From: Acinetobacter wuhouensis
Lineage (GTDB): Bacteria; Pseudomonadota; Gammaproteobacteria; Pseudomonadales; Moraxellaceae
Length of the DNA stretch: 64,000 nt
NCBI RefSeq assembly: GCF_001696605.3
Contig: NZ_CP031716.1
Coordinates: 434,001-498,000, forward strand
Direction of reading: 5' to 3'
This document shows positions 48,930 to 50,698 of the stretch, piece after piece. The translations under genes were made by a program, and so were the position numbers. Every line of letters starts with the position of its first letter. Position 1 is the stretch's first letter. The notes beneath the pieces were generated by a model. The model had not been told where the DNA came from. It ran no database searches and saw only the letters and a list, made by a program, of their open reading frames with translations.

Positions 48930-50069
48930 ATGATTTGGATAGAAATATTGTCTGCAATCGTGATTTGGCTGAGTTTTTGGTCATTGATCCCACGTGATGA
49001 ATGGTGGTTCAGGGGTGCAGATTTCCCACGCTTACAGATTTTGTTTGTCGGGATCATTGCTTTCTTTTTACTGCTGTTTTGGCAAGGAGAATGGGATTTA
49101 AAACGAGAAATTATTTTTGTGCTGTTGATTGCCGCTTTAGCATTTCAATTGAAAATGGTTTTGCCTTATACCTTTCTATGGAAAAAACAAGTTGCTCAAG
49201 TTCGATCTGAACAACTTGATTCGAGTAAACAGATTTCTGTGCTTGTTTCGAATGTACTCACGCCGAATGATCAATATCAACTTTTGATTGAGCACATCCA
49301 AAAGTTTCAACCTGATTTAGTGTTGACCTTAGAAACCGATCAAACGTGGCAAAATCATTTAAAAGTGATTGAGCAAGATTATCCCTATCGAGTTCCTGTG
49401 CCATTAGATAATTTGTATGGCATGCATTTGTATAGCAAATTAAAATTGGTGGATACCGATGTCAAATTCATTCTGAGTGATGAAATTCCTTCGATTCATA
49501 CCACTGCGATTCTGCCATCAGGGCAAGCCGTTAAACTGTATTGTTTACACCCTAAACCACCGAGCCCAACGGAAGCCAAAGATTCAACTTTAAGAGATGC
49601 TGAATTACTGATTGTCGGTGACCAAATTAAAGATTTGGATGAAAGTTGTATCGTGATGGGGGATTTAAACGATGTGGCTTGGTCTCGGACGACACGGCTA
49701 TTTCAACGGATTAGTGGCTTACTCGATCCACGAGTAGGGCGTAAATATGTCAATACTTTTCATGCAGATTATAAGTTTTTAAGATGGTCGCTCGATCATT
49801 TATTTCATAGTACAGACTTTGCTTTAGTGCAGATGCAACGATTGCCACATATTGGATCAGACCATTTCCCTATTTTTGTTACGCTGCAAACGGGTCGTGT
49901 TTTTGAGCAGATTCAAGAAGAACTGGAACAGTCGGATGCGGATGAGCAAGAGGCTCAGGACGCGATTCAAGAGGGCATCGAAAAAGCAGAGAAAGAAGAA
50001 AAAATTGTCACTGATGAAATTGCACAGGATTATAAATGTGAAAATAAATTGTCAGACAATAAAGGCTGA
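48930..50069 (+). CDS. Membrane-anchored endonuclease/exonuclease/phosphatase-fold protein
   Basis: A 379-residue protein with three N-terminal membrane helices (residues 1-82), an EEP domain (about 100-320), and an acidic coiled-coil tail (about 325-370). EEP motifs include VLTLETDQTW, YCLHPKPPSPTEAKDSTLRDAELL, VMGDLNDVAWSRTT (metal Asp/Asn) and HIGSDHFPIFVTL (catalytic Asp-His). Members hydrolyse phosphodiester or phospholipid bonds; the substrate is not visible. The catalytic part probably faces the periplasm. Confidence 0.85.
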   Translation: MIWIEILSAIVIWLSFWSLIPRDEWWFRGADFPRLQILFVGIIAFFLLLFWQGEWDLKREIIFVLLIAALAFQLKMVLPYTFLWKKQVAQVRSEQLDSSKQISVLVSNVLTPNDQYQLLIEHIQKFQPDLVLTLETDQTWQNHLKVIEQDYPYRVPVPLDNLYGMHLYSKLKLVDTDVKFILSDEIPSIHTTAILPSGQAVKLYCLHPKPPSPTEAKDSTLRDAELLIVGDQIKDLDESCIVMGDLNDVAWSRTTRLFQRISGLLDPRVGRKYVNTFHADYKFLRWSLDHLFHSTDFALVQMQRLPHIGSDHFPIFVTLQTGRVFEQIQEELEQSDADEQEAQDAIQEGIEKAEKEEKIVTDEIAQDYKCENKLSDNKG

Positions 50070-50083
50070 ATTTGGTTGATTTT

Positions 50084-50101
50084 TGTAAGTTATTTCGTAC
50101 A
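50084..50101 (+). promoter_or_regulatory. GacA-box-like palindrome
   Basis: TGTAAG-TTATTT-CGTACA matches the GacA upstream activating sequence TGTAAG-N6-CTTACA at 11 of 12 defined positions. It lies about 60 bases before the predicted 5-prime end of the GGA-rich RNA, the spacing known for rsmY/rsmZ promoters. Confidence 0.7.
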
Positions 50102-50156
50102 AGGATTGTGTCTCTAAACGGATGGTATGAAATCTGTATTCGCTTTAATCTTTAAT

Positions 50157-50330
50157 CATCGACAAACGGAATGGGAAAGGAAATGTCCCGCTAAGGAAGA
50201 CGAAGTCGATGGATGAATCATCATGGATTTGATGTTGGAATGGATAACCAAATAGAATAAAAATAATGATTGAAAGCACAACCTCATAGACCCGAGTTTT
50301 GCAGGACGCAGAACTCGGGTTAGCTTTATT
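50157..50330 (+). ncRNA. Candidate Rsm/Csr-type regulatory RNA (GGA-rich, TwoAYGGAY-like)
   Basis: No ORF lies here, yet structure is dense. An outer stem ATCGAC (50158-50163)/GTCGAT (50205-50210) encloses hairpin GGGA/TCCC with AAGGA in its loop. Then CATC (50219-50222)/GATG (50231-50234) presents ATGGAT, and TTGG (50235-50238)/CCAA (50248-50251) presents ATGGAT again. The terminator ACCCGAGTT (50290-50298)/AACTCGGGT (50312-50320) carries AGGA in its loop and is followed by a T-rich tail. At least eight GGA triplets precede the terminator. GGA in hairpin loops is the CsrA/RsmA binding signature. A GacA-like box lies upstream and TTTAAT (50144-50149) is a possible -10. Confidence 0.72.
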
Positions 50331-50332
50331 TA
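50290..50332 (+). terminator. Terminator of the candidate Rsm-like RNA
   Basis: Nine-base stem ACCCGAGTT/AACTCGGGT extended inside by TGC/GCA, followed by TTAGCTTTATTT. Confidence 0.82.
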
Positions 50333-50380
50333 TGGTATATAATTTATCCGATTTAGAGTCGAAAATAAAAATGAGTGATT

Positions 50381-50698
50381 ATGTATTTATCTAAATTTCA
50401 AGAATTCAAAATTTATATTGTCAATTTCACAGACTTAGCACGTGATGCACTGCATATTTACGCAGGTCTAGCTGTTTTCTTTATTGTTGCCCTGATACAT
50501 AAGCGTCAATTGAAATCGACTTGGGCGATTATAACCGTTATTTGTGTCGCAGTAGGATGTGAACTTTTCGATGCTCGGGATGATTTGATTAATCATGGGT
50601 ATTGGCGAGTAGGCGCAAGTATGCATGACATTATCAATACTTGTTTTTGGCCAGTTATGATTTGGCTTATGGCACGTTTTCGAGTCTGGAAAGGCTGA
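50381..50698 (+). CDS. Small VanZ-like membrane protein
   Basis: A 105-residue protein from ATG 50381. It has two hydrophobic helices (HIYAGLAVFFIVALI and TWAIITVICVAVGCELFDARDD) and a hydrophobic C-terminal part (ASMHDIINTCFWPVMIWLMARF). The arrangement of acidic residues around GCELFDARDD...HDIINT recalls VanZ-like/DUF2238-type small proteins, but the match is weak. It follows the regulatory RNA terminator by about 60 bases. Function unknown. Confidence 0.72.
   Translation: MYLSKFQEFKIYIVNFTDLARDALHIYAGLAVFFIVALIHKRQLKSTWAIITVICVAVGCELFDARDDLINHGYWRVGASMHDIINTCFWPVMIWLMARFRVWKG

Follow-up and report, generated by a model that had tools for sequence, protein, structure and literature searches.

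The small RNAs RsmX, RsmY and RsmZ of the Gac/Rsm system in Pseudomonas are encoded by free-standing genes that combine a GacA-type palindrome, hairpins exposing GGA in their loops and an intrinsic terminator. GacA recognises a box of the TGTAAG/CTTACA type, a consensus known from Pseudomonas. CsrB and CsrC of enterics and vibrios offer many GGA sites to CsrA. RsmX, RsmY, RsmZ and CsrB, together with the TwoAYGGAY motif, are all families of Rfam 15.

In A. baumannii, GacSA is reported to control hundreds of genes (PMC5295007), and growth on rich media reportedly requires CsrA (PMC12802169). The RNA link between the two is listed as uncharacterised, with RsmX/Y/Z bracketed for this species as found by genome inspection (PMC7366521). 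RNAs regulating RsmA/CsrA had been predicted earlier in A. baylyi ADP1, and a machine-learning study of 2017 lists two more (PMC5568370, in part). Papers citing Kulkarni et al. (2006) credit that work with predicting such RNAs in Acinetobacter, and the portion available of another article draws a CsrB-like RNA in A. baylyi with reference to 2006 (PMC12442408). The main texts, supplements excluded, of the available parts of PMC11472050, PMC12802169, PMC12646401, PMC12153292, PMC5538643 and PMC8567240 describe no CsrA-binding sRNA of Acinetobacter. An initial sequence-only reading of the locus described here had suspected a gap in this genus; this holds in so far as the RNAs are uncharacterised for A. 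baumannii, and not for A. baylyi ADP1, where predictions exist.

Positions 50084-50332 of our window (64,000 nucleotides of the Acinetobacter wuhouensis contig NZ_CP031716.1) very probably encode an Acinetobacter-wide sRNA, built to soak up CsrA when GacA switches it on. We call it type 1; its features are collected in Table 1. It would thus be an exact, genus-wide candidate for the link listed as uncharacterised (PMC7366521, in part). Type 1 resembles RsmX, RsmY and RsmZ in its GacA-type palindrome, GGA-loop hairpins, intrinsic terminator and free-standing gene, and differs from them in lacking an Rfam match, in a -10 hexamer placed at a nearly invariant 44 nt from the box, and in a block complementary to csrA. 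In its proposed action, through multiple GGA sites for CsrA, it is like CsrB and CsrC, although it is shorter, has fewer sites, and again has no Rfam match. Its loops are similar to the YGGAY-type loops of TwoAYGGAY (Weinberg 2010, PMC2864571, seen in part), a family to which the locus had tentatively been compared. However, an Rfam search at the gathering threshold and up to E 10 gave five chance-level matches to unrelated families, with neither TwoAYGGAY nor RsmX, RsmY, RsmZ or CsrB among them.

Table 1. Features of the type-1 locus (positions in the window) and of two type-2 copies outside it. The 5' end of the type-1 RNA is inferred from the -10 hexamer and the 3' end from the terminator.
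Feature	Position	Strand	Basis
Upstream neighbour, 379 aa, endonuclease/exonuclease/phosphatase-like by eye	48930..50069	+	
GacA-type upstream activating palindrome TGTAAG-TTATTT-CGTACA (TGTAAG-N6-CGTACA)	50084..50101	+	sequence; one dyad base pair imperfect
-10 hexamer TAATCT, 44 nt past box	50146..50151	+	shared box-to--10 spacing
Predicted CsrA-sequestering sRNA, type 1, ~168 nt	about 50157..50325	+	model R2 match C8:484153-484321
Outer stem CATCGAC (50157-50163) / GTCGATG (50205-50211) around hairpin 1	50157..50211	+	covariation and fold
Hairpin 1, loop AAGGAAATG, GGA in loop	50172..50190	+	fold and individual sequences
AAGGA, predicted single-stranded CsrA site, within TAAGGA conserved in the alignment	50193..50197	+	
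Hairpin 2, CATCA/TGATG, loop TGGATT	50219..50234	+	99.5% of cells paired in alignment
Hairpin 3, TTGG/CCAA, AATGGATAA loop	50235..50251	+	fold; some relatives without hairpin 3
Conserved unpaired block GAAAGCACAACCTCAT, complementary to csrA mRNA 5' leader	50272..50287	+	alignment
Intrinsic terminator, 14-bp stem, loop AGGAC	50289..50321	+	terminator search and fold
Downstream ORF, 107 aa, no assigned function	50375..50698	+	
Type-2 RNA with box and -10, plasmid or plasmid-sized contig	C4, L135:1323-1518		
Type-2 RNA with box and -10, plasmid or plasmid-sized contig	C2, L179:1493-1618		

The RNA occupies the non-coding stretch between the 379-aa gene and the 107-aa ORF. No ORF of at least 40 aa lies inside it on its own strand, the longest overlapping one (44 aa) being on the opposite strand. 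The elements picked out in the sequence-only reading are all there: the 18-base palindrome, the strong terminator with AGGA in its loop, and the predicted nine GGA triplets, six of which are ANGGA (counted over 50150-50330). Such a density is matched by few windows. Among 6382 sliding 181-nt windows of the 64 kb, counted on both strands and including the RNA's own overlapping windows, seven reach at least six ANGGA and five at least nine GGA; among 10000 mononucleotide shuffles the corresponding numbers are 6 and 20. Half of the ANGGA sites (3/6) lie in the loops of hairpins 1-3, and the other three are single-stranded or at a stem end. The three GGA-loop hairpins proposed from the sequence can all be drawn with GGA in each loop, but in the minimum-energy fold of 50157-50325 only hairpins 1 and 3 form, along with the terminator, and the bases of hairpin 2 find other partners. 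GGA positions have a mean probability of 0.73 of being unpaired, versus 0.49 over the whole RNA. Started at 50157, the RNA folds better than dinucleotide shuffles (z -3.4, 0/200 as good); started at 50140, one of 200 shuffles folds as well. The outer stem, the -10 hexamer and the conserved unpaired block had not been noticed in the sequence-only reading.

Type 1 is conserved throughout the genus. BLAST with 50070-50335 found it in 31 of 37 Acinetobacter genomes, our own included, and in none of 21 others. A search pattern spanning the 3' block as far as the terminator retrieved 104 stretches in named genomes (79 from Acinetobacter and one from a Moraxellaceae MAG among the 80 listed), and conservation of the 3' part in these is partly by construction because they were selected by a pattern there; 30 loci found by BLAST and eight found only by a covariance model are free of this selection. 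With that model, R2, 93 of 99 Acinetobacter genomes each give a single strong match (E about 1e-11 or better), and across 115 genomes of the order there are, besides our own copy, two matches, both marginal (E about 5e-4); low-scoring matches of R2, as of the type-2 model R1 described below, include reverse-strand matches to terminators. The eight divergent loci were hand-picked from the weaker R2 matches among the 93 and lie outside the pattern and BLAST sets. No type-1 match was found in the remaining six of the 99 genomes (G020, G026, G032, G067, G098, G119), and one further genome (G035) has only a weak copy, from which the hexamer is absent. All six genomes without type 1 are under 3 Mb, and each keeps a GacA homologue.

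We also considered whether type 1 might be plasmid-borne, a notion we rejected: its matches in a plasmid collection are four A. baumannii records of 1.0-4.1 Mb, and we therefore read it as chromosomal. Three A. baumannii "plasmid" records of 3.7-4.1 Mb (NZ_CP064203.1, NZ_CP077849.1, NZ_CP104448.1) are apparently chromosomes.

The GGA triplets are conserved in relatives as well, the 106 distinct type-1 RNAs carrying 6-11 GGA and 4-7 ANGGA each; hairpins were counted in these RNAs without a chance control. To follow the structure, we used an alignment (A1) of 49 type-1 sequences less than 90% alike, taken from the 104. Besides the outer stem and the terminator, the RNAalifold consensus has one GGA hairpin; hairpin 1 was misaligned by MAFFT and hence stands outside the pair counts. 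In its 22 consensus pairs, 99.3% of cells are paired, versus 24-42% (at most 41.5%) when partners are slid by 1-3 columns. The covariation anticipated from the sequence was borne out, since two-sided changes occur in nine pairs versus a mean of 3.6 in shuffles. In the outer stem, for example, columns 38-97 alternate between A-U, G-C and G-U, and columns 39-96 between G-C and A-U.

The promoter follows a strict geometry. In the 106 loci with enough upstream sequence (among 111 distinct loci), the palindrome agrees with the TGTAAG/CTTACA half-sites at 10-12 of 12 positions in every case, and a TANNNT hexamer lies exactly 44 nt past the box in 104. At other offsets between 36 and 53 nt, TANNNT is found in 41 loci at 49 nt and in at most two at any remaining offset. 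The eight divergent loci agree, with a box of 10-12/12 in all eight and the hexamer at 44 nt in seven. The fixed distance from box to -10 would place the centre of the box at about -65, a position suited to an activator. The type-1 promoter was missed by a generic sigma-70 scan. Genome-wide, the relaxed box TGTAMG-N6-CKTACA occurs nine times, against once for a reversed control pattern, and eight of the nine precede a GGA-rich terminated RNA, type 1 once and RNAs of a second type (type 2) seven times. The exact TGTAAG-N6-CTTACA occurs once, on contig C4, with a type-2 RNA behind it. This rule of box, 44 nt and -10 finds the siblings of type 1. The ninth box, at C8:387588, precedes a terminated GGA-poor stretch to which neither R1 nor R2 fits. 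This stretch (L142:1589-1815) has few GGA, with one AAGGA in a possible hairpin loop, and is perhaps a third RNA type or a decayed copy.

Candidates for the presumed partners are encoded in the same genome. CsrA is encoded once (118 bits, cut-off 73), and its first 57 residues are nearly identical to those of E. coli CsrA (1Y00), so a preference for ANGGA is expected. Assignment of the activator is less direct, and the box could be read by another LuxR/NarL-type regulator, the RNA then being a CsrA sponge outside the Gac pathway. There are six GerE-domain matches in the genome, five of them over cut-off, and the GacA candidate (C8:282888-283520) scores 270 bits with its best family, UvrY/SirA/GacA, just below the curated cut-off of 280. 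Moreover, homologues 69-93% identical to it occur in 20 other Acinetobacter genomes, hence in 21 of the 21 hand-picked for this test, including the six that lack type 1. On the other side, the box agrees at 10-12 of 12 positions with the Pseudomonas consensus for GacA, which the sequence-only reading also used, and among the three GerE proteins scanned the GacA candidate alone has UvrY/SirA/GacA as its best family. We consider control by another regulator improbable. A GacS/BarA-like hybrid kinase (C8:3226984-3229614) scores 566 bits against a cut-off of 890; for GacS, sCache_4 matched below threshold only. A scan of viral contigs for GacA yielded nothing informative.

A quite different view would be that there is no sRNA gene at all, and that the stretch is a long 3' UTR with the terminator of the upstream gene, its GGA triplets having arisen by chance. 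That gene is indeed on the same strand, its stop lies 87 nt before the inferred RNA start, and the arrangement is conserved: the same gene, in the same orientation, is found at 103 of the 104 type-1 loci with enough sequence. It also lies beside type 1 in A. baumannii X4-300 and in the type strain of A. baylyi, where a different gene, a transporter by eye, lies 3' of the RNA. Against this view stand the conserved box and -10 that the RNA has for itself, at a fixed distance, compensatory changes in its stems, a GGA density equalled by so few windows, and relatives of the same architecture in other gene contexts, and we regard it as very improbable indeed. The same conservation, covariation and promoter geometry, with the genome-wide link between boxes and GGA-rich RNAs, strongly support the original proposal of a GacA-box-driven CsrA-sequestering RNA. 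The points that stand against it are the sub-cut-off scores of GacA and GacS, the six genomes without type 1, the GGA-poor ninth box, and the absence of an Rfam or sigma-70 match. On balance, a free-standing sRNA gene, activated by GacA and sequestering CsrA, and the single-copy type-1 member of a larger box-driven set, is in our view highly likely. What we observed directly is the sequence, its conservation, structure and promoter geometry, and genes for CsrA and for a regulator of the GacA type.

Transcription, control by GacA, and the binding of CsrA with its effect may be pictured as follows. Phosphorylated GacA would bind the palindrome, centred at about -65, and activate a sigma-70-type promoter with its -10 at a fixed distance. 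The resulting transcript of ~168 nt would present six ANGGA sites and the GGA of the terminator loop, and may bind several CsrA dimers, a sequestration that would relieve CsrA-repressed mRNAs. Type 1 would be the single-copy, genus-wide member of the set, and type 2 its multi-copy counterpart on chromosome and plasmids.

This RNA had first been taken for the only CsrA-sequestering RNA of the organism, a view that has to be given up, as the same genome holds nine more, of type 2. These are GGA-rich, terminated RNAs of about 130-150 nt that share the box, the spacing and the GGA-loop architecture of type 1. A covariance model (R1) built from six copies of this genome added two further ones, at C8:3170122 and on contig C2, with boxes of 11 and 9 of 12. 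R1 has matches in 60 of 60 Acinetobacter genomes, with 1-15 per genome, totals that are upper values because reverse-strand terminator matches are included; a scan of 115 genomes of the order gives, apart from our own genome, one marginal match (E 2.7e-6). When 30 type-2 copies were taken, one per genome, the box was at the expected place in 28, of which 25 have TANNNT at 44 nt, and in the remaining two a box is present at a different locus offset. Two type-2 RNAs resemble RsmY across the full length of the model, at sub-threshold scores only (22.5 and 20.4 bits, cut-off 57). By these sequence tests, then, type 1 is a predicted genus-wide, GacA-box-driven CsrA-sponge RNA and one of a larger set. 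In A. baumannii X4-300, three type-2 RNAs lie within 1.8 kb (L199:6803-8599), and similar runs occur in other genomes.

Some of these RNAs may have been seen before. The position and orientation of the A. baylyi ADP1 RNA at 25035-24917, with gene order -><-<- (PMC5568370, in part), suggest that it corresponds to the type-2 copy at C8:29391-29527. Both genes flanking type 1 in the type strain of A. baylyi are on the strand of the RNA, an arrangement that fits neither of the two ADP1 loci given in the 2017 study. The sRNA catalogue of A. baumannii AB5075 contains a four-member Group 3 of 128-147 nt (PMC5320573, in part), a size that would fit type 2; tmRNA, sought as a landmark for mapping this group, was not found in the stretch of A. 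baumannii chromosome examined.

Type 2 also extends to plasmids. In our genome, two copies lie on small contigs, of 12 and 31 kb. The C4 copy with its promoter matches 241 records of the plasmid collection, all from Acinetobacter, and in 137 of them the match spans 80% or more of the query. A chromosomal type-2 copy matches 347, of which 327 are from Acinetobacter, and 52 reach that coverage. Both sets of counts are slightly inflated by a few chromosome-sized records in the collection. The other 20 records are Klebsiella/Raoultella/Enterobacter plasmids, and the one present among the matches listed covers 23% of the query, at the terminator end. Among the 30 matches listed for the C4 query, none has an annotated feature at the type-2 site. 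Seven Acinetobacter plasmids (L207-L213), hand-picked from the 30 matches listed for the chromosomal query, all match R1 and have a box of at least 10/12 with TATNNT at 44 nt. Small type II toxin-antitoxin genes are annotated near type 2 in all seven, and one of the records carries a carbapenemase gene. Plasmid-borne CsrA proteins such as RsmQ (PMC9928087, PMC7366521) provide a parallel, in the parts of these papers available, of mobile elements touching the host Csr network; unlike the RsmQ plasmids, those of Acinetobacter would carry an RNA antagonist and not a protein. Neither plasmid-encoded CsrA sponges nor sRNAs pairing with csrA mRNA are described in the available portions of PMC9928087 and PMC12442408.

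A phage-borne origin of type 2 was considered and rejected, as the one matching "phage" record examined has metabolic genes of a bacterial chromosome. This record, CAKLQF020000013.1 (L214; prpB/prpC, fabB), and its sister contig CAKLQF020000006.1 (L216; csrA, thrA, rnhB) are named "Acinetobacter phage MD-2021a", yet by their gene content both seem to be pieces of a bacterial chromosome misfiled under phage.

Of special interest is the unpaired block immediately 5' of the terminator. It is among the best conserved parts of type 1 and contains no GGA site. Its core, CACAACC, is kept in seven of the eight divergent relatives found only by the model and reads CACGACC in the eighth, while outside the core the block varies in these relatives (10-14 of 16 letters). 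With the stretch of the csrA leader about 49-61 nt upstream of the start codon, the block can form 13 contiguous pairs, including G-U, at -19.5 kcal/mol. Runs of 13 contiguous pairs are not rare by themselves (10 in 128 kb, one being the RNA itself); in energy, only one of 852 pieces of 150 nt from the window pairs as well with the block, and this one lies antisense to the RNA itself. In A. baumannii the csrA leader has largely diverged and the complement is kept, at -18.6 kcal/mol, with none of 652 pieces as good.

The comparison was extended to further csrA leaders. Three of these were taken as Acinetobacter because their CsrA is 92-100% identical; they give -15.4, -18.6 and -18.1 kcal/mol, the second value coming from a leader that differs by a single base from that of A. 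baumannii. The five Acinetobacter-type leaders then range from -15.4 to -19.5 kcal/mol, and shuffles as good number 0, 0, 3, 0 and 0 of 500; five leaders are few, two differ by one base in 150, and they are not independent because they are homologous to each other. Among 66 other csrA leaders the best value is -14.9 and the median -8.8 kcal/mol, although these control genes are on viral contigs, are on average richer in G+C (49% vs 30%) and exclude 11 of 77 dropped for length; the 22 controls whose G+C does not exceed 42% reach -12.9 at best. The pairing site is distant from the Shine-Dalgarno sequence and partly paired in the predicted fold of the leader, and the comparison of csrA with other targets covered window pieces and csrA leaders. 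For whole type-2 RNAs, duplex energies with the leader of csrA were uninformative.

Pairing with the csrA leader is a serious but unproven extension of the sponge reading. In addition to sequestering CsrA, type 1 may pair through 50272-50287 with the csrA leader and alter the translation or stability of csrA mRNA, a dual function that we hold to be possible, if somewhat short of probable. Together with the plasmid copies, this suggests two new twists, namely CsrA sponges with a GacA box carried by plasmids, and an sRNA directed against csrA mRNA in addition to the CsrA protein. Still more tentatively, Acinetobacter might have a doubled Csr antagonist: a near-universal RNA soaking up CsrA and pairing with csrA mRNA in a feed-forward loop, plus GacA-driven sponges spread over plasmids, by which mobile elements shift the host Csr balance by RNA and not by protein. 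The plasmid-borne siblings and the csrA-complementary block are the features most deserving of experiments. On the reverse strand of L139, which carries the csrA leader, we also noted a conserved CTGTT-GAAT-like stretch about 70-80 nt ahead of the csrA start and just before the complementary block; it looks like an extended -10 promoter of csrA.
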